DNA from: Hoeflea sp. IMCC20628
Lineage (GTDB): Bacteria; Pseudomonadota; Alphaproteobacteria; Rhizobiales; Rhizobiaceae
Length of the DNA stretch: 64,000 bases
NCBI RefSeq assembly: GCF_001011155.1
Contig: NZ_CP011479.1
Coordinates: 4,351,662 to 4,415,661, forward strand
Direction: 5' to 3'
Part shown: piece after piece, positions 1 through 9,418 of the stretch
How the letters are laid out: the number at the start of each line of letters is the position of its first letter
How positions within the stretch are numbered: the first letter of the stretch is position 1
Program-made: the position numbers and the translations under genes
Notes under the pieces: generated by a model
What the model saw: only the letters and a program-made list of their open reading frames with translations
What the model was told of the DNA's origin: nothing
Database searches by the model: none

Positions 1-1152
1 ATGCCGAAGGTGATCGGCGTGGTGACCTCGCCAACAGGCGCCGTAATCCGCGACATTCTGCACCGGATCGAAGACCGCTTCCCGGTCCACGTGATCGTCT
101 GGCCCGTCAGGGTGCAGGGTGACACCTCGGGCCAGGAAGTGGCGCAGGCGATCAACGGCTTCAATGCACTGGGTGCAAACGGTCCGATTGCCCGACCGGA
201 CCTGATCATCGTGGCCCGTGGCGGCGGCAGCCTGGAAGACCTCTGGGGCTTCAATGACGAAGCCGTGGTGCGCGCTGCGGCAGACTCCGATATTCCGCTG
301 ATTTCGGCGGTCGGGCACGAGACCGACTGGACCCTTATTGATCACGCCAGCGACCGGCGCGCGCCGACACCCACCGGTGCCGCCGAGATGGCGGTCCCGG
401 TCAAGGCTGATCTGGCGGCACAGTTGGCGGCATTTACAGCACGGCTCAAATCCGCCCAATCGCGCACACTCGACCGGCGGCGCGAAGCCATCCGGGCTCT
501 GGCGCGAGCCCTGCCAACGCTCGACAGCGTGCTGGCGATGCCACGGCAGCGGCTTGACCGCTCGGGACAGGGGTTAGGGCAGGCGCTACAGCTCAACACC
601 GCCAACCGGCGGCGCAGTTTCGAACGACAGGCCGGGCGTGTGACGCCGGTGGCACTGGTTTCGGCAATCCGCGACAAGCGCCAACTGGTTCGAGACAAGA
701 CCTCACGCGCCGACCGGGCGCAGGAGCGCCGTCTTGAGGCCTGGAGATCCCGGCTGGATCGGCACGCTCTGGTGCTCGCCGCAGTGCCGCGCCGGATCGC
801 CGAGACCCAGACCCGCAGCCGTGAGAGGCTGGCTGGTTTCCACCACCGCGCCGACATTGCGCTCACCCAGTTGCTGGGCCAAAGACGCCGGGGGCTTGAT
901 GGACAGGCGCGCATGCTGCAATCGCTGTCCTATCACAGCGTGCTGGGCCGTGGCTTCGCGGTGATTCGCGACCAGGACCGTGCTGTTTTATCGCGCGCTG
1001 ACCAGGTCGAGACCGGCACGATGATCGCAATCGAATTCTCCGATGGCGAGGTTGCAGCGCTTGCCAGCAGCGATCAGCCGATCTCGGGGCCGAAGCCCCC
1101 CCGCGCCAAGGCGACGAAGCCGAAAGAGCCGGGACAGGGCAGCCTGTTCTAG
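1..1152 (+). CDS. xseA: Exodeoxyribonuclease VII large subunit (5' truncated by window edge)
   Basis: XseA is the catalytic large subunit of exonuclease VII, which with XseB degrades single-stranded DNA to oligonucleotides. The visible 383 residues start inside the family's catalytic core ([16 protein letters not shown]), and include the [14 protein letters not shown] and [11 protein letters not shown] motifs typical of the enzyme, then a long charged helical region (about residues 130-310) and the C-terminal [14 protein letters not shown] segment. Known full-length proteins are around 450-530 residues with an N-terminal OB-fold, so roughly 100-140 residues lie before base 1. The ATG at base 1 is therefore an internal methionine, not the start. 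The following gene on the same strand starts 98 bp downstream and has its own promoter-like sequence. Confidence 0.95.
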
Positions 1153-1215
1153 GATCCACACGCTCGAACTGACAGCAGACAGGCAGAACTTTCCGGCCCG
1201 ATTTAACATGGGTTA

Positions 1216-1250
1216 TTGCGGTCAGCGCTACCGGAACATATAAAGAACAT
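1216..1250 (+). promoter_or_regulatory. Predicted promoter with overlapping LexA-type SOS box
   Basis: A -35-like TTGCGG (1216-1221) and a -10-like TATAAA (1239-1244) are 17 bp apart. A GAAC-ATATAAA-GAAC element (1234-1248) covers the -10. GAAC-N7-GAAC is the reverse complement of the GTTC-N7-GTTC site known for alphaproteobacterial LexA. The ATG at 1251 is only seven bases past the -10, so the mRNA would be leaderless or nearly so, which fits the absence of a Shine-Dalgarno sequence. Motif match by eye only; binding and start site are inferred. Confidence 0.7.
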
Positions 1251-2486
1251 ATGACCGGAAAAACACTCGAATCAAAGCTGGCGATCCTCAGCGATGCCGC
1301 CAAATATGACGCCTCCTGCGCCTCGTCGGGATCGACCAAGCGCGACAGCAGGGACGGCAAGGGGCTGGGGTCGAACGAGGGCACCGGGATCTGCCATGCC
1401 TATGCCCCCGACGGGCGCTGCATCAGCCTGCTCAAGATCCTGATGACCAATTTCTGCATCTATGACTGCGCCTATTGCATCAACCGGGTGTCGTCGAACG
1501 TGCCGCGCGCGCGGTTTTCGGTCGACGAAGTCGTGCGACTGACCATCGATTTCTATCGGCGCAATTACATCGAGGGGCTGTTTTTGTCCTCCGGCGTCAT
1601 CCGCTCGCCGGATGCGACGATGTCGGACATGGTGCAGATCGTGCGCAAATTGCGCGAGGAGGAGAATTTTCGCGGCTATATCCATCTCAAGACCATTCCG
1701 GACGCGTCGCCCGAACTGATCGCAGAAGCGGGACGGCTGGCCGACCGGCTGTCGATCAATGTGGAATTGCCAACCGACGCCGGCATGCAGGCCTTTGCGT
1801 CTGAGAAGAATCCGGCGCAGATCCGCCGGGCCATGGCCGATGTGCGGCTGCGCAAGGAGGCCGCCAGCGATGTCACCCATACCGGACGCAAGGCGGCGCG
1901 ATTTGCCCCGGCCGGGCAATCGACCCAGATGATTGTTGGTGCGGACGGATCCAATGACGCCGCCATTCTGGGTGAATCAACCCGGCTCTATTCCAGCTAC
2001 AAGCTGAAGCGGGTCTATTACTCGGCGTTTTCGCCGATCCCCGACAGCACGGCGCGGCTGCCGCTGATCTCGCCGCCGCTGGTGCGCGAGCACCGGCTTT
2101 ACCAGGCCGACTGGCTGCTGCGGTTTTACGGCTTTGACTTGCAGGAGATTGTCAGTGGCGCGCGGGATGGCAATCTTGATCTGGAGCTTGATCCGAAACT
2201 GGCCTGGGCGCTGTTGCACCGCGAAACCTTTCCGGTCGACATCAACCGCGCCGACCGGGAACTATTGCTGCGGGTGCCGGGCTTCGGGGTGAAGACGGTC
2301 AACCGGATCCTCAGCACGCGCCGCTACCGCAATGTGCGCTACGAGGACGTGGTGCGAATGGGCGGAAGCATGAAAAAGGCCGGCGCCTTCATCACCGCGC
2401 AGGGCTGGTCGCCCGGTGGGCTGATTGACACCGCGCAGCTCCGCAGCCGCTTTCTGCCGCCACCAGAGCAATTGTCGCTGCTCTGA
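1251..2486 (+). CDS. Putative DNA modification/repair radical SAM protein (UdgX-linked)
   Basis: This 411-residue protein belongs to the radical SAM family that is usually encoded next to UdgX-type proteins; its reaction is unknown. The Cx3Cx2C cluster motif is at C69, C73 and C76 (NFCIYDCAYC), so it should bind a [4Fe-4S] cluster and S-adenosylmethionine. A TIM-barrel-like body follows. Around residues 325-360 there is a helix-hairpin-helix segment (DINRADRELLLRVPGFGVKT), a non-specific DNA-binding fold, which supports a DNA substrate. The N-terminus (KLAILSDAAKYDASCASSG) looks like a true family start, which fixes the ATG at 1251 even though there is no ribosome-binding site. The stop codon overlaps the start of the next gene by one base, so the two are translationally linked. 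Confidence 0.88.
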   Translation: MTGKTLESKLAILSDAAKYDASCASSGSTKRDSRDGKGLGSNEGTGICHAYAPDGRCISLLKILMTNFCIYDCAYCINRVSSNVPRARFSVDEVVRLTIDFYRRNYIEGLFLSSGVIRSPDATMSDMVQIVRKLREEENFRGYIHLKTIPDASPELIAEAGRLADRLSINVELPTDAGMQAFASEKNPAQIRRAMADVRLRKEAASDVTHTGRKAARFAPAGQSTQMIVGADGSNDAAILGESTRLYSSYKLKRVYYSAFSPIPDSTARLPLISPPLVREHRLYQADWLLRFYGFDLQEIVSGARDGNLDLELDPKLAWALLHRETFPVDINRADRELLLRVPGFGVKTVNRILSTRRYRNVRYEDVVRMGGSMKKAGAFITAQGWSPGGLIDTAQLRSRFLPPPEQLSLL

Positions 2487-3952
2487 TGCGCCATATCGCC
2501 TTGCCAGACACCGGGACCGCGGATGCGTGGCGCAAGGCCGCGCGATCCTGCCTGCGCGAGGGCCTGCGGCCTGCTGACATCTCCTGGGGAACCGCACAGA
2601 CCGAGCGGGGGCTGTTTGACGACCAGCAGTCGGAAGGTGGCGCGCCGGTCAAGATGACGGTGCCGCGCAGTTTCATCAGCCTCGCCGAAACCGTCTGCTG
2701 GCATAGCGACGCCGATCGGTTTGCGCGGCTCTACCAGTTCTTGTGGCGGCTCAAAGACACGCCGCATCTGATTGCCGACCGGGGTGACAGGGAACTGGCG
2801 CATCTCCGCGGGATGGAAAAATCGGTGCATCGATGCCAGCACAAGATGAAAGCCTTTGTGCGGTTTAGGGAAATTGGCGATCGCGATGATGCGCGGCGCA
2901 GTTTCGCTGCCTGGTTCGAGCCGACCCATCACACGGTGGAGCCGACAGCGGGCTTCTTTGCCGGGCGGTTTGCCGATATGGACTGGCGGATTGTCACGCC
3001 GGAGAAGACCGCGATCTTTCAGGACGGGAGCTTGAGCTTTGCGCCGGGGCAACCCAAGCCGGCCTTGCCAGAGGACGCCGGCGAGACGCTGTGGCTCACC
3101 TATTTCCGCAACATCTTCAATCCGGCGCGGCTGAAGGTGCAGGCGATGACCTCGGAGATGCCGAAGAAATACTGGAAGAACCTGCCCGAGGCGGCGACGA
3201 TCCCCGACCTGATTGCCAATGCCCCGGCGCGCGCCCGGGCGATGGCGCATGCCGCACCGACCCTGGCGCCGATGCGGGCGGGCAAGGCGCGCCAGCAGCT
3301 TGCCGCGCACATGTCCGCCTGGGACGGGCCGCTGGACGCCCTGCCCGCCGCCATTCATGCCTGCACCCGCTGTCCGCTGCACAGTACGGCGACACAGGCC
3401 GTGCCCGGAATCGGACCACTCGATGCGGCGCTGATGATCGTCGGCGAGCAACCTGGCGATCAGGAGGATCTGACCGGGCTTGCCTTTGTCGGCCCTGCCG
3501 GGCAGCTGTTTGACAAGGTCGCGCAATCGGCGGGCTTGGACCGGTCGGCGGCCTTTGTCACCAATGCCGTCAAGCATTTCAAGTTCACGCCCCGCGGCAA
3601 GCGGCGGCTGCACCAGCGGCCCAATTCCGGCGAGATCGAGCATTGCCGCTGGTGGCTGGATGCCGAGCGCAACCTTGTGCAGCCGAAACTGATCCTGGCC
3701 CTTGGCGCCACCGCTGCCGAGACCCTGACCGGGTCAGGTGCGAACATTCTTCGCCGCCGGGGAACCGTGGAACAGCTTGCCGACGGCACCCCGGTGCTGC
3801 TGTCGGTGCATCCATCGTTCCTGCTGCGCCTGCCCGATCCGGCGGAACAGGAAAAGCAGATAGCGTTGTTCGAGGCGGATCTTCGCCGTGCGGTGGAGAT
3901 GGTCGTTGCGCTGACGGCTCGATCCGGCAGTCAGGACTCGGCGGCAGGGTGA
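2486..3952 (+). CDS. DUF4130-UdgX fusion, covalent uracil-DNA-binding protein
   Basis: A 488-residue two-domain protein. Residues about 60-250 match the DUF4130 / 'SAM-linked DNA metabolism' domain (HLRGMEKSVHRCQHKMKAFV, THHTVEPTAGFFAGRFADM). Residues about 285-475 are a UdgX-type uracil-DNA glycosylase domain with C293xxC296 and C387 as likely Fe-S ligands, the GEQPG motif at 320-324, and KRRLH at 372-376. In the Mycobacterium smegmatis UdgX family this loop (KRRIH) carries the histidine that forms a covalent bond with uracil-derived DNA, so H376 is the predicted reactive residue. HPSFLLR (from H442) is the C-terminal active-site motif. In many genomes these two domains are separate genes; here they are fused and overlap the radical SAM gene. 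The role is inferred as DNA damage recognition or repair under SOS control. Confidence 0.9.
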   Translation: MRHIALPDTGTADAWRKAARSCLREGLRPADISWGTAQTERGLFDDQQSEGGAPVKMTVPRSFISLAETVCWHSDADRFARLYQFLWRLKDTPHLIADRGDRELAHLRGMEKSVHRCQHKMKAFVRFREIGDRDDARRSFAAWFEPTHHTVEPTAGFFAGRFADMDWRIVTPEKTAIFQDGSLSFAPGQPKPALPEDAGETLWLTYFRNIFNPARLKVQAMTSEMPKKYWKNLPEAATIPDLIANAPARARAMAHAAPTLAPMRAGKARQQLAAHMSAWDGPLDALPAAIHACTRCPLHSTATQAVPGIGPLDAALMIVGEQPGDQEDLTGLAFVGPAGQLFDKVAQSAGLDRSAAFVTNAVKHFKFTPRGKRRLHQRPNSGEIEHCRWWLDAERNLVQPKLILALGATAAETLTGSGANILRRRGTVEQLADGTPVLLSVHPSFLLRLPDPAEQEKQIALFEADLRRAVEMVVALTARSGSQDSAAG

Positions 3953-4004
3953 ACTGGCAACGGAACTGTCCGGGCCTGATCAGCCGGCTAACATATCCGC
4001 TGTG

Positions 4005-4478
4005 TCAGGCAACAACTTCGGCACAGACCGCATTGAGCGCCCGCGCCGCATCTTTCGGATCAAGCCGGACCTGCAGTCCGCGCTGGCCACCATTGATGAA
4101 CACATAGGGTTGCGTGAGTGCGGCGCGTTCAATGGCGGTCGGCACCTGCTTTTTCTGGCCGAAGGGGCTGATGCCGCCGACATGATAGCCGGTAAGGCGC
4201 TCGGCGTCCGCAGGCTTCATCATCATCGCCGACTTGCCGCCAAGGGCTGCTGCCAGCTTCTTCATGCTGACTTCATGGTCGGACGGCAGCACGACGCAGA
4301 CCGGCTTGCCGTCGAGTTCCGCCATCAGGGTCTTGAGCACCCGCGACGGCGGCTCGCCCAGTGCCCGGGCCGCGTGCATGCCGATGCTTTCGGCATCGGG
4401 ATCGTAGTCATAGCTGTGGACGGTGAAGGCAATGCCGAGCTTGGCGAGAGCTTGTGTGGCGCGGGTGGTCTTCGCCAT
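4005..4478 (-). CDS. ybaK: Cys-tRNA(Pro) deacylase, YbaK/EbsC family
   Basis: A 157-residue YbaK-type trans-editing enzyme that hydrolyses Cys-tRNA(Pro) (and related misacylated species) made by prolyl-tRNA synthetase. The conserved FTVHSYDYD start, the VLKTLMAEL core lysine region, the GGISPFGQKK loop and the YVFINGGQRGLQVRLDP end are all visible, and the length is normal for the family. A Shine-Dalgarno-like AAGGGG lies about seven bases before the ATG. It is 11 bp downstream of the ArsC-like gene on the same strand and is probably the last gene of the guaA transcript. Confidence 0.93.
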   Translation of the reverse strand: MAKTTRATQALAKLGIAFTVHSYDYDPDAESIGMHAARALGEPPSRVLKTLMAELDGKPVCVVLPSDHEVSMKKLAAALGGKSAMMMKPADAERLTGYHVGGISPFGQKKQVPTAIERAALTQPYVFINGGQRGLQVRLDPKDAARALNAVCAEVVA

Positions 4479-4489
4479 CTCAAATCCCC

Positions 4490-4837
4490 TTACGCGAAAA
4501 ACTGCTCGTAGAGGTCCGGCTTGAAGCCGATGATGATCCGGCTATCGGCTTCCAGCACCGGACGCTTGATCATCGACGGTTGCGCCAGCATCAGGGCGAT
4601 GGCCTTATCCGTATCCAGATCCTGCTTGGCGGCTTCATCAAGCTTGCGGAATGTGGTTCCGGCGCGGTTGAGGACAGTTTCCCAACCGGCTTGCCCGCAC
4701 CAGCGCACGAGATGCGCCCGTTCGATGCCCGACGCCTTGTAATCGTGGAAATCCACCACGATGGCATGCTCAGCGAGCCAGTTGCGCGCCTTCTTCATCG
4801 TGTCGCAGTTCTTGATGCCGTAGATGGTGACGGTCAT
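4490..4837 (-). CDS. ArsC/Spx family protein, YffB-like
   Basis: A 115-residue thioredoxin-fold protein of the ArsC/Spx superfamily. It begins TVTIYGIKNCDTMKKARNWL, the single-cysteine variant seen in YffB-like members, so it has the equivalent of the first catalytic cysteine (C11) but no CxxC pair. The C-terminal half has the IKRPVLEADSRIIIGFKP strand pattern found across the family. YffB-type proteins have been proposed as glutathione-dependent thiol reductases; arsenate reduction is not supported because no arsenic genes are nearby. It sits 24 bp after guaA and 11 bp before ybaK, in the same direction. Confidence 0.85.
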   Translation of the reverse strand: MTVTIYGIKNCDTMKKARNWLAEHAIVVDFHDYKASGIERAHLVRWCGQAGWETVLNRAGTTFRKLDEAAKQDLDTDKAIALMLAQPSMIKRPVLEADSRIIIGFKPDLYEQFFA

Positions 4838-4861
4838 ATGCAGTTCCGTGCTTGCAGCACC

Positions 4862-6433
4862 TCATTCCCACTCGATGGTTCCGGGGGGCTTGGAGGTAAC
4901 GTCATAGACGACGCGGTTGATGCCCTTGACCTCGTTGATCAGCCGCGTGGCGGTCTGTCCGAGAAAGGCCATGTCATAGGGATAGAAATCCGCGGTCATG
5001 CCGTCGACAGAGGTGACGGCGCGCAGCGCGCAGACGAACTCGTAAGTGCGGCCATCGCCCATGACGCCGACGGTCTGCACCGGCAAGAGCACGGCGAATG
5101 CCTGCCAGATGGTGTCGTAAAGACCGGCCTTGCGGATCTCGTCGAGATAGATCGCATCAGCCTGACGCAGGATGTCGAGTTTTTCGCGGGTGATGCCGCC
5201 CGGGCAGCGGATGGCCAGGCCGGGACCGGGGAACGGGTGACGGCCGATGAAGCTGTCGGGCAGGCCAAGCTCTTTGCCCAGCACCCGGACTTCGTCCTTG
5301 AACAATTCGCGCAACGGCTCGACCAGCTGCATGTTCATGCGATCAGGCAGACCGCCGACATTGTGGTGCGACTTGATGGTCACCGAAGGGCCGCCGGAAA
5401 ACGAAACACTTTCGATCACGTCTGGATAGAGCGTGCCCTGGGCGAGGAAATCGGCGCCACCGATCTTCTTGGCTTCTTCCTCGAACACTTCGATGAACAG
5501 CCGGCCAATGGTCTTGCGCTTGGTCTCCGGATCGGCTTCGCCTTCCAGCTGCGAGATGAACCGGTCCGACGCATCCACCATTTTCAGATTGAGATTGTAA
5601 TGTTCGGTGAACATGGCCACCACATCGGCAGCCTCGTTCATGCGCATCAAGCCGTGATCGACGAGGATGCAGCTCAGCTGGTCGCCGATGGCTTCGTGAA
5701 TCAGAAGCGCTGCAACGGAGGAATCAACGCCGCCGGACAGCGCGCAGATGACCTTGCCGGAGCCGACCTGGTCGCGGATCTTTTGCACCATCTCCGCCCG
5801 ATAAGCAGCCATGCTCCAATCGGATTTCAGACCGACGATCTTGTGCACGAAATTGGCCAGCAGCTTGGCGCCATCGGGCGTATGCACCACTTCGGGATGG
5901 AACATGGTGGTGTAATAGCGCTTGTCTTCATTGACCGAGATGGCGAAGGGCGCGTTCGGCGATGTGCCGATCACCTCGAATCCGTCTGGAAGACGGGTGA
6001 CCCGATCGCCATGGCTCATCCACACTGGATACTTCTTGCCAACTTCCCAGATGCCTTCAAACAGCGGCGAAGGCTTGAGGATCTCGACATCGGCGCGGCC
6101 AAACTCTCGGTGATGACCGCCTTCGACATTGCCACCGATCTGTGTGCAGAGCGTCTGCTGACCATAGCAAATGGCGAGGATCGGAACGCCTGAATCAAAC
6201 ACCGCCTGCGGCGCGCGCGGCGAGCCTTCGCGGGTGACCGAATCCGGCCCGCCGGAAAAGATCACGCCTTTCGGCTGCATCCGCTCAAAGCCTTCATCGG
6301 CCAGCTGGAACGGGACAATTTCGCAATAGACCCCGGCTTCGCGCACGCGGCGGGCGATCAGCTGCGTGACCTGACTGCCGAAGTCGATGATCAGAATGGA
6401 ATCGGGATGAGTGGTGTGGAGGATATCGTTCAT
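4862..6433 (-). CDS. guaA: GMP synthase (glutamine-hydrolysing)
   Basis: A 523-residue GMP synthetase that converts XMP, glutamine and ATP to GMP in the last step of de novo guanine nucleotide synthesis. The N-terminal class I glutamine amidotransferase has the nucleophile in [10 protein letters not shown] (C89) and the catalytic His/Glu region MFHPEVVHT. The ATP pyrophosphatase domain has the PP-loop [11 protein letters not shown], and the C-terminal dimerisation domain ends with the typical [17 protein letters not shown]. The start ATG follows the nucleosidase gene by only nine bases, which suggests co-transcription from upstream. Confidence 0.98.
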
Positions 6434-6442
6434 GGCGAGCGA

Positions 6443-7075
6443 TTAAGCCAAAGCCGCGCCGGATGCAATCGCCTGCTCTATGCGATCCACCGCTTCGGCG
6501 AGTTTTTCATCAATCACATGCAAATATTCGGTCCAATCGTCGAGATGGTTGAGGTCTGCCTTGCCATCGGAGATGCCGCGCAGACCGATCACCGGCACGT
6601 CAAACAGGCTGGCGGCGCGCAGCACGGCAAAGGTTTCCATGTCGACCATGTCGGCATCGATGAGGTCATAGGCAGCGCCCGAGACAATGTTGGCACCGGT
6701 GGACAGGCTGGCGGCGGCGATGCCTCCGGCGATCACCGGCATCGGCAGCTTGGCGGGGAGGTCAAGCAGCGGCGTCCGGCCTTTCTCGAAGCCGAGCGGG
6801 CTCGCATCCATGTCGCGGTAGCTGACCGAGGAGACCTGATAGACATGGGTTTGCTCGAGCAGCCGCGAGCCAGCAGATCCCAGCGACACAATGCAGTCGG
6901 GCCGGCCAGACCCGGACATTGCCAGGCTGGCAGTCAGCACGGTGGCGGCCTCCACCGGGCCGATGCCGGTGATCAGCGGATCAAACCGCGTCTTCAGATG
7001 CGGGCCATATTCCGGCTCAGCCGCCATCACATAGAGAACCCGGCGGTCACCAACCGTTTTGACTGTGCCTCTCAT
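6443..7075 (-). CDS. 5'-methylthioadenosine/S-adenosylhomocysteine nucleosidase-like protein
   Basis: A 210-residue purine/uridine phosphorylase-fold protein. It shows the family core SLGSAGSRL, the substrate-binding VDMETFAVLRAA and the RGISDGKADLN catalytic loop expected for MTA/SAH nucleosidases, which release adenine from methylthioadenosine or SAH. It is slightly shorter than the roughly 230-residue E. coli enzyme and diverges at the N-terminus, so substrate specificity is inferred. The start overlaps the stop of the thioesterase gene (ATGA), a sign of translational coupling, and guaA begins nine bases downstream, which suits a purine-salvage role. Confidence 0.85.
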   Translation of the reverse strand: MRGTVKTVGDRRVLYVMAAEPEYGPHLKTRFDPLITGIGPVEAATVLTASLAMSGSGRPDCIVSLGSAGSRLLEQTHVYQVSSVSYRDMDASPLGFEKGRTPLLDLPAKLPMPVIAGGIAAASLSTGANIVSGAAYDLIDADMVDMETFAVLRAASLFDVPVIGLRGISDGKADLNHLDDWTEYLHVIDEKLAEAVDRIEQAIASGAALA

Positions 7076-7521
7076 CCGTCAATCCCTTCGCGGCCACGCA
7101 CCACCATCATGGTGCCGGTCATCGACGCGATCAGTTTGGCCGGACCATCGGAGATGGAATAGGCGCGCCCATCGCTGACAATGATGGTGTTGCCGGGCTT
7201 GGTGACCTCGCCGCGAAACAGGAAATGATCGCCGCGTCCCGGCGACAGAAGATTGATCTTGAACTCGATGGTCAGCACTGCCGCACCCTCGGGCATTACC
7301 GACAGCGCCGCATAGCCGCAGGCCGAATCGAGCGCGGTCGACAAAATTCCTGCATGAAGAAAGCCGTGCTGCTGGGTGAGATCCGCACGAAACGGCATCT
7401 CGATCTCGACCACGCCATATTCGACGCTGGTCAGCGAAGCCCCGATGCTGCGCATGACGTTCTGGCGGGCAAAACTGTCGGTCACCCGGCCGCGGAAATT
7501 CTGGTCTGGTCTTTCGTCCAT
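7072..7521 (-). CDS. PaaI-family (hotdog-fold) thioesterase
   Basis: A 149-residue hotdog-fold protein of the PaaI/YigI acyl-CoA thioesterase type. It shows QQHGFLHAGILSTALDSACGYAAL, in which the HAG and following acidic residue form the family active-site region, then a strand rich in hydrophobic residues (AVLTIEFKINLLSPG). A start eleven codons earlier (TTG at 7554) is possible, but the ATG at 7521 has a strong AAAGGA five to nine bases upstream, so I chose it. The natural acyl-CoA substrate is not evident. It overlaps the nucleosidase gene by four bases. Confidence 0.85.
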   Translation of the reverse strand: MDERPDQNFRGRVTDSFARQNVMRSIGASLTSVEYGVVEIEMPFRADLTQQHGFLHAGILSTALDSACGYAALSVMPEGAAVLTIEFKINLLSPGRGDHFLFRGEVTKPGNTIIVSDGRAYSISDGPAKLIASMTGTMMVVRGREGIDG

Positions 7522-7596
7522 GCGCAATTCCTTTCGCAGCTGCGAAGGTGGCAAGCACGCGTCAAAACCGCAAGCGGTTTCTGGCGCACTTACCGA

Positions 7597-8061
7597 TCAG
7601 ACCCGGTTGAGCCACCAGATTGCGCCGTTGAGCAGACCGGCAAAGGACACCCAGGCCGCATAGGGCAGGAACAACAAGGCTGCGGGACGATCGCGGTTCC
7701 AGGCGGTGGCGATAAAGGCCAGAATCGATATCAGCATGGCGATCAGCACAACGAGCGCCAGATCGGCGCGATGCAGCACGAAAAACACCGGCGACCAGGC
7801 GAAGTTCAGCGCCATCTGGACAAACCAGATTTTCGACAGCCAGTTGCCCCGTTCCTTGATGAAGGCCCGCGCCCCGGCGATGCCGACAAGCACATAGAGC
7901 GTGGTCCAGACCGGGCCGAAAATCCAGTTTGGCGGATTGAAGGACGGTTTTTCCAGGCCCTGATACCAGGGACCGGGAATCGAGAAATATCCGATCAGGC
8001 TGCCACCGGCGACAGTGAGGCCGACAAACAGGAACAATGCCAGTGCATGCGATTTATTCAT
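7597..8061 (-). CDS. tspO: TspO/MBR (translocator protein) family membrane protein
   Basis: A 154-residue integral membrane protein with five hydrophobic segments, as in the TspO family. The family hallmarks are visible: GPWYQGLEKPSFNPPNWIFGPVW near the first loop and ALNFAWSPVFF in the third helix. Bacterial TspO binds tetrapyrroles and influences porphyrin efflux and stress responses. It is preceded by an AGAGG ribosome-binding site. It lies between the rRNA methyltransferase and the thioesterase, all on the minus strand, but the gaps of 64-75 bp leave it unclear whether they share a transcript. Confidence 0.95.
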   Translation of the reverse strand: MNKSHALALFLFVGLTVAGGSLIGYFSIPGPWYQGLEKPSFNPPNWIFGPVWTTLYVLVGIAGARAFIKERGNWLSKIWFVQMALNFAWSPVFFVLHRADLALVVLIAMLISILAFIATAWNRDRPAALLFLPYAAWVSFAGLLNGAIWWLNRV

Positions 8062-8125
8062 GGTTCCACCTCTTGCCGATCATGATCCGTCACCAGCTGC
8101 GCTGACCTTATAGCCCTGCCGACTG

Positions 8126-9418
8126 TTACATCTTGCGGCGGAACCCGGCGAAATAAAACCCGTCGGTGCCGGTCCGCCGCGGCGACAGAATCAATCCCAG
8201 ATTCTGGTCCGCATAGGGAACCGGCGCATCGGGATCGGCCACTGCGGCACGCCAACGCTGCTTGAGGCTAATGGTTTCAAATTCCGGATGCCGGGTCAGA
8301 AACGCCTTGACCCGGTCGGTGTTTTCTTCCGGAAGCAGCGAGCAGGTGACATAGGCCAGCTCGCCGCCGGGGCGGACATAGACCGACGCGTCATCGAGCA
8401 CCTTGTCCTGATCGGCGGTGCGGTCGGTAAGGTTCTTTTCCGAAATCCGCCATTTGGCATCAGGCCTGCGGCGCCAGGTGCCGGTGCCGGTGCAGGGTGC
8501 GTCAACCAGAACCCGGTCCATCGCCTGTTCCAGCCCGGCCAGATTGAACGGTCGCTCCTTGATGTCGATGATTTCGACACCGGCGCGGCGCATGCGCTCA
8601 ACCATCGGCGCAAGCCTGCGCCGGTCGGCATCATAGGCATTGATGCGCCCTTCGTTGTTCATCATGGCTGCAAAGGCCAGCGCCTTGCCGCCGCCGCCGG
8701 CGCAATAGTCGAGAACGATTTCGCCCGGCTCGGCGCCGGCCAGACCGGCTGCCAGCTGCGAGCCCTCGTCCTGGACTTCGAACCAGCCCCGGGCGAAATT
8801 GACTTCGCTGGTAGCGGCAATCTGGCGCTGCGGTCCCTCGCCGGCCTCAATGCGGATGCCATTTGGCGCCAGCCGGGTCGCCGATGCGCCTTGGCCTTCA
8901 AAGGCTGCCAGCACCTGATCGCGATCGGTGACGATTGTGTTGACCCGAAGATCAAGCGGTGGGCGGGCGGTCATCGCCTGCGCCTCGGCTTCCCACTCTT
9001 CACCAAAGGCGCGCTCAAACGAGGCGACCAGCCATTCGGGAATGTCGGCGCGCACATGCGGTTCAGCTTGTGACAGATCCCGCGCCAGACAGGCTGTCTG
9101 CAGGTCCACTGACGGTATTTCGGGTGCGAACTTGTCTCCCTCAAGGCTGGCGGTCAATTCTTCCGGGCTGATGCCCCACTGGCGCAACAGCGTTGCCACT
9201 GCCAGATCGGCAGGCGTATCACCATCCATGATGAAAGCGTGCGACAGCTTCATCCGCAGCGCGTCATGCACCAGGTTTGAAATCGCGCCGCGATCGCCGG
9301 ATCCGGCAAAGCGGTGCGACAGGCCCCAATCCTTCAGCGCTTCCGGCACCGGCCGGTGCCGGGTCTCGATGTCGGTGAGAATTTCGATGGCTGCTTGCAG
9401 ACGTCCGCCGAGGCGCAT
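8126..9418 (-). CDS. RsmB-type 16S rRNA (cytosine-C5) methyltransferase
   Basis: A 430-residue RsmB/NOP-family RNA m5C methyltransferase. The C-terminal catalytic half has the SAM-binding motif VLDYCAGGGGKALAFAA, the DAPCTGTGTWRRRPDAKW motif and the YVTCSLLPEEN motif that supplies the nucleophilic cysteine. The N-terminal third is helical and NusB-like (RHRPVPEALKDWGLSHRFAG), typical of RsmB proteins. A longer frame begins ten codons upstream, but the ATG at 9418 has GGAG about nine bases before it and matches family N-termini. The exact target base is an inference from family membership. Confidence 0.92.
   Translation of the reverse strand: MRLGGRLQAAIEILTDIETRHRPVPEALKDWGLSHRFAGSGDRGAISNLVHDALRMKLSHAFIMDGDTPADLAVATLLRQWGISPEELTASLEGDKFAPEIPSVDLQTACLARDLSQAEPHVRADIPEWLVASFERAFGEEWEAEAQAMTARPPLDLRVNTIVTDRDQVLAAFEGQGASATRLAPNGIRIEAGEGPQRQIAATSEVNFARGWFEVQDEGSQLAAGLAGAEPGEIVLDYCAGGGGKALAFAAMMNNEGRINAYDADRRRLAPMVERMRRAGVEIIDIKERPFNLAGLEQAMDRVLVDAPCTGTGTWRRRPDAKWRISEKNLTDRTADQDKVLDDASVYVRPGGELAYVTCSLLPEENTDRVKAFLTRHPEFETISLKQRWRAAVADPDAPVPYADQNLGLILSPRRTGTDGFYFAGFRRKM

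Follow-up and report, generated by a model that had tools for sequence, protein, structure and literature searches.

A probably SOS-regulated radical SAM-UdgX operon in Hoeflea sp. IMCC20628 with a LexA box over its -10 element and a predicted leaderless start

Operons of the COG1573-COG4277 type, carrying a UDG gene and placed under SOS control, have been reported in Alphaproteobacteria and Verrucomicrobia and inferred in Bacteroidetes (PMC8565304). SOS control of the radical SAM/UdgX pair is therefore already published, and the operon described here shares with that account the gene pair and, very probably, the LexA control; the spacing between promoter and start codon, or the existence of leaderless transcripts, is not mentioned in the available passages of that work (PMC8565304). 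UdgX bonds covalently to uracil-derived sites in DNA, its precise physiological role has been called largely unknown, and RecA-dependent pathways may resolve UdgX-DNA complexes (PMC10359453). As for leaderless transcription, 171 leaderless transcription start sites have been mapped in Sinorhizobium meliloti (PMC3616915), and Caulobacter CCNA_01391, an early SOS gene with the box GTTCttgttatGTTC (PMC12700426), has a leaderless primary transcription start site (PMC4287350). These starts were measured, while the one presented below is predicted. In Mycobacterium tuberculosis, lexA is an SOS gene in which translation starts where transcription does (PMC2897130); it differs from our case in phylum, gene and LexA motif. 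In the open-licence literature that was searched, we found no account of a leaderless register for the radical SAM/UdgX operon, and an earlier mention elsewhere is possible.

The stretch of DNA analyzed here (the window) comprises 64,000 nucleotides of the Hoeflea sp. IMCC20628 genome. The first gene of the operon (1251..2486, plus strand) belongs to TIGR03916, with a score of 575.4 bits against a curated cut-off of 343.5; it also matches PF04055 and carries the CxxxCxxC motif in the form CIYDCAYC. The COG4277 label for this kind of gene is that of PMC8565304. The second gene (2486..3952, plus strand) encodes a DUF4130 domain and UdgX, with matches to TIGR03915 and TIGR03914 above their cut-offs. 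Compared with the motifs described for UdgX, namely motif A GEQPG, the loop KRRIH and motif B HPS(S/A)(L/V)(L/V)R (PMC10359453), GEQPG is exact and each of the other two deviates in one residue (KRRLH, with L for I, and HPSFLLR, with F for S/A). The ATG of the UdgX gene overlaps the stop codon of the radical SAM gene by one base (TGATG). This arrangement is widespread: GEQPG is found 3' of the radical SAM gene in 165 of the 205 loci with enough sequence, and the radical SAM stop codon carries TGATG or ATGA in 114 of the 205. Upstream of the radical SAM gene lies a gene that matches xseA (TIGR00237), the 5' part of which seemingly falls outside the window.

Promoter, operator and start codon are closely packed in front of the radical SAM gene. 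A -35 element, TTGCGG (1216..1221, plus strand), is separated by 17 bp from a TATAAA -10 element (1239..1244, plus strand) contained in the spacer of a LexA operator, GAAC-ATATAAA-GAAC (GAACATATAAAGAAC, positions 1234-1248, assigned to neither strand), which on the minus strand reads GTTC-N7-GTTC and is an exact match to the alphaproteobacterial operator (PMC8565304; PMC12700426). Compared with the operator as such, this site has the particularity that the spacer doubles as the -10 element and that the box ends 2 nt 5' of the ATG, with box, -10 and start codon all inside 20 bp (1234-1253). Six bases lie between TATAAA and the ATG, and A1251, the seventh base after the -10 on the plus strand, is the predicted transcription start. 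An earlier, first-pass annotation of this DNA had given the box correctly to the base, and what it said of the -10 overlapping that box at 17 bp from TTGCGG and of the ATG seven bases past the -10 agrees with these positions. It had also claimed that a Shine-Dalgarno sequence is absent, and indeed none of the cores AGGA, GGAG and GAGG occurs within 1231-1250. The ATG at 1251 is the sole in-frame ATG, GTG or TTG between the in-frame stop at 1170 and codon 65; from residue 15 onwards the protein shows an invariant block, DAAKYDASC.

A mechanical scan for sigma-70 consensus sequences between 1000 and 1400 did not find a promoter, since the scan asks for a final T, which is missing from TATAAA, and TTGCGG makes a weak -35 element. 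Most of the alphaproteobacterial sigma-70 promoters analyzed in a previous work lack that final T; the lack of a -35 TTG is attributed there to Actinobacteria and Betaproteobacteria and not to Alphaproteobacteria (PMC8407463). The motif GTTC-N7-GTTC is not significant by itself: the window has 4 copies where 1.65 are expected (4 or more in 12 of 100 shuffles), and the whole genome has 158 against 130 for its backward control. Being frequent by chance, it makes the case for the box rest on conservation, and what sets this site beyond chance is the presence of the same box, in a similar promoter register, 5' of the orthologs.

That conservation is extensive. A TIGR03916 match was found in 67 of 151 genomes of the family, a count that takes in our strain, and 66 of these matches exceed the cut-off; the partial gene of genome G082, which scores below it, was left out. 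An exact GAAC-N7-GAAC is present upstream of and near the start in all 66 family orthologs, the gene of the window among them. A general absence of the box among close relatives, which would have spoken against the first-pass annotation, is not what we observed, although the two genomes of the same genus in the draw lack the gene altogether. In orthologs sampled across the class the box was found in 22 of 24, with the inverted form in one. In a set of 80 named loci it was found in 66, and eight others have the inverted form alone, no more than 250 nt away from the conserved block; the remaining six, three of them beta/gammaproteobacterial, have neither. For the analyses that follow, 288 ortholog loci were taken, of which seven duplicates and four loci whose accepted range held no start codon (L086, L187, L190 and L221) were dropped, leaving 277 rows (247 alphaproteobacterial and 30 beta/gammaproteobacterial); weak matches, including L105-L109, were left out, and for the family of G213, with 78 matches, 30 loci and 20 regions were read in addition to those already in the set. 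Of the 247 alphaproteobacterial orthologs, 219 have the box no more than 60 nt from the start and 12 have the inverted box, and in the other 16 neither orientation gives an exact box at that distance; Bradyrhizobium-like orthologs among these 16 mostly show GTTCATGATATGTTC about 130 nt 5' of the conserved block. The genome of Hoeflea sp. IMCC20628 also has a lexA gene (TIGR00498, 183 bits, above the cut-off) with the box GAACACATATGGAAC upstream, and further boxes precede ssb-, dinB- and imuA-like genes, named from their translations. LexA control of the radical SAM/UdgX operon, which had been claimed for the window, is thus strongly supported by the conservation of the box together with the earlier reports on COG1573-COG4277 operons (PMC8565304), and on these grounds we regard it as almost certain. 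As a separate observation, some orthologs (L012, L021 and L025) carry a pair of LexA boxes that overlap, 11 bp apart, through one shared GAAC. Caulobacter CCNA_01391 was considered as a possible Caulobacter ortholog of the radical SAM gene: rows L288-L291 have boxes other than GTTCttgttatGTTC, and L285, which bears the same family code, has the identical 15-mer.

The position of the box relative to the start separates the alphaproteobacterial orthologs into two main classes. Class I (147 of 247) comprises the orthologs in which 0-9 nt separate the end of the box from the start, a gap of 2 nt being the commonest (83 rows); in class II (63 orthologs) this gap is 10-18 nt, with 14 as the commonest value (33 rows). 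The spacer of the box has a TA at the -10 position in 130/147 class I orthologs, against just 12/63 in class II. The overlap of -10 and LexA box claimed for this promoter consequently stands for the window and for these 130 class I orthologs, but not for most of class II. The distance from the -10 to the start, in turn, recurs in both classes. The TA of a -10-like hexamer located exactly 6 nt before the start, as in the window, is found in 137/247 orthologs, while control offsets give a mean of 1.9% and a maximum of 4.9%; in class II, 46/63 have a TA at a distance of 6 or 7 nt from the start. The -35 element behaves similarly: a TTG at the offset of the window element (A-35) is present in 34 of the 83 class I rows with a 2-nt gap, against a background of about 1.0 per offset, and at this same offset in 8 of the 48 class II rows with gaps of 13-15, against a background of 0.5. 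Where the gap of a class I row is 4-7 nt, the leader would be about 2-5 nt long. No TA was found 4-11 nt before the start in 47/247 orthologs, and among the 12 inverted-box rows TAnnnT stands 6 nt before the start in four. It should be taken into account that the constraints on the -10 and on LexA binding are inseparable in class I, and that the rows share ancestry, so that all these counts are not independent trials. On a FastTree tree of the 208 full-length alphaproteobacterial rows, the box changes between classes I and II at least seven times, compared to a mean of 39 in 50 shuffles of the labels, and the presence of a TA 4-11 nt before the start changes 12 times. Given the TA near the start in 46/63 class II rows, the common TTG offset at A-35 and these seven or more changes of class, the sequences suggest that the spacing between -10 and start often persists where the operator has moved, although this is not universal.

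The beta- and gammaproteobacterial orthologs provide a partial parallel. A box of the E. coli type, CTG-N10-CAG, is present within 60 nt of the start in 25 of the 30 rows, and TAnnnT is located exactly 6 nt before the start in nine of the 30, which probably represent few lineages. Four of these (L164, L185, L223 and L235) start at a GTG, and the CTG-N10-CAG box closes with the G of that codon, TAnnnT preceding it by 6 nt. The arrangement parallels the alphaproteobacterial layout with a different LexA motif; the four may form one lineage, and L223 and L235 share a genus code. In L189 and L212-L215, which have TAnnnT at 6 nt, no CTG-N10-CAG box was found within 60 nt. The Stenotrophomonas-like rows among them (L189 and L213-L215) show a palindrome at or near GGTCTCATCCAATGAGACC, again with TAnnnT 6 nt before the ATG.

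The compact arrangement does not seem to extend to the SOS genes of the family in general. Matches to dinB-like and imuA-like genes were found in 57/61 and 53/61 genomes, respectively, and the best 30 loci of each were read, giving 25 dinB-like and 19 imuA-like genes with a usable start and a box. A TA 4-9 nt before the start was present in 7/25 and 4/19 of these genes from the best 30 loci, compared to 63/66 family radical SAM genes, with the reservation that the choice of start in the dinB- and imuA-like genes allowed GTG and TTG and is uncertain, and that other RecA-like proteins may be among the imuA-like matches. With these figures for the best 30 loci of each, the idea that all SOS genes of the family would be leaderless was rejected. 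In the 25 dinB-like genes obtained from the best 30 loci (L338-L367), an inverted LexA box was observed 1-24 nt before the start; judged by eye, the -10 is often 5' of this box, which may then sit in a short leader. The sequence GAAC-N7-GAAC-NN-ATG was also searched regardless of the gene, and it is present in 105 of 121 family genomes. When one such site was taken in each of 30 genomes, 19 corresponded to open reading frames of less than 40 amino acids, two to the radical SAM gene (L309 and L328) and nine to other open reading frames, at least two of which (L310 and L313) have GGAGG or GGGAGG within the pattern. The nine may owe their position, 2 nt past the repeat, to chance or may have starts preceded by a Shine-Dalgarno sequence. 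A LexA box abutting the start as a general feature of gene starts was not borne out in this sample, with 19 of 30 sites at tiny open reading frames and the nine others as possible cases.

Two readings of this spacing can be considered. It may simply have been inherited with the gene, being part of a compact SOS promoter and not selected for leaderless translation, which we find quite conceivable even if short of probable. The clustering of the box classes on the phylogeny (seven changes where shuffled labels gave a mean of 39) and the 12 gains or losses of the TA near the start agree with inheritance, while the recurrence of the spacing over at least seven changes of box position is harder to accommodate, as are the TAnnnT at 6 nt in a third of the inverted-box rows and in nine beta/gammaproteobacterial rows, the latter probably of few lineages. 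The other reading, that leaderless initiation is itself under selection, is advanced as tentative: the spacing would have been held in a large part of the Alphaproteobacteria, and independently in certain beta- and gammaproteobacteria that have a different LexA motif, while the operator slides, flips or is replaced. Its likelihood is tempered by the nine abutting open reading frames that are not radical SAM genes and by the beta/gammaproteobacterial parallels, which may come down to one lineage.

Whatever the origin of the spacing, the signals for translation fit a leaderless mode where the -10 is close to the start, and a leadered one in some other lineages. The box lies 10-45 nt before the start in 72 rows. 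Of those with a -10 after the box, 3/47 have a Shine-Dalgarno core in the stretch from box to start, as against 11/25 of those without it (Fisher p = 2.6e-4), a comparison made on stretches of unequal length and on related rows. A looser count over all 247 rows, in which the box was included, gave a weaker difference (22/200 vs 13/47, p = 0.009); control windows farther upstream have a core in 9-13% of rows. The start codon is ATG in 236/247 orthologs. In the window itself, the -10 six nucleotides before the AUG, a distance that recurs in orthologs, and the missing Shine-Dalgarno core point to a radical SAM/UdgX mRNA that is very likely leaderless or nearly so (0-2 nt). The leaderless transcript proposed in the first-pass annotation is in this way suggested by a -10-to-start distance that recurs also with the box elsewhere, and it stands as a prediction.

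An alternative would be that SOS control is real and the transcript nevertheless leadered, coming from an upstream promoter or from read-through of xseA, the hexamer near the ATG being merely part of the operator. No terminator-like site was found in 1000-1400, the consensus scan did not retrieve the promoter, and some orthologs outside the family (e.g. L097, L102 and L252) seemingly have a leader with a Shine-Dalgarno sequence, all of which would be in line with this possibility. We consider it improbable, in view of the -10-like hexamer that remains near the start in 46/63 class II orthologs though their box is elsewhere, and of the region between the stop at 1170 and the ATG, with no other in-frame start and no Shine-Dalgarno core in its last 20 nt. 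A third possibility concerns the repeat itself, GGAAC being the motif of EcfG-type promoters. That the GAAC direct repeat serves another regulator or sigma factor in place of LexA is highly improbable: the bare motif is common by chance and GGAAC does occur at 1233-1237, but a loose GGAAC-N15-18-[CT]GTT pattern is near the start in just 6/247 orthologs, a count on which an EcfG-type promoter was rejected, a box of the same type lies upstream of lexA, and the CTG-N10-CAG boxes of the 25 beta/gammaproteobacterial orthologs fit LexA control of the gene.

A compact SOS promoter driving the radical SAM-UdgX operon is, as a whole, the best explanation, and a likely one. LexA bound at 1234-1248 would cover the -10 element and block RNA polymerase; upon DNA damage and cleavage of LexA, the sigma-70 polymerase would use TTGCGG/TATAAA, with transcription starting at A1251 or within one or two bases of it. 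The mRNA would then begin at or very near the AUG and be translated with no Shine-Dalgarno sequence, and UdgX could be produced by translational coupling through the TGATG overlap. Throughout many Alphaproteobacteria, the spacing between -10 and start would be more constant than the box, which may lie on the -10, just upstream of it or, in a few cases, inverted.

Toxicity of UdgX may be a reason for tight control of the operon. SOS regulation is usually described in terms of operator strength. That the operator shifts while the distance from promoter to start tends to stay hints at a constraint on the way in which the mRNA is translated. If leaderless initiation were indeed selected, there would be a leaderless class of SOS genes whose mode of translation counts when DNA is damaged: it could, for example, hold a protein that forms covalent bonds with DNA at very low levels until damage occurs, or permit translation when ribosome conditions are altered. 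At an operon that includes UdgX, the arrangement would connect leaderless translation with the response to DNA damage in a way that is widespread and open to testing.

With regard to the origin of the operon, the genome belongs to the Rhizobiaceae, yet the radical SAM protein of the window is nearest to those of Roseobacteraceae among the 208 rows, with 82% identity, and the TIGR03916 gene is absent from the two genomes of the same genus in the draw. In both, the nucleotide match to the window stops in the 3' part of xseA (at about window position 1000-1050), and the 1.5 kb past the end of the match gave no nucleotide match to window positions 1153-9000. The comparison suggests that the radical SAM-UdgX operon (window 1153-3952) may have been acquired horizontally, together with its compact promoter.
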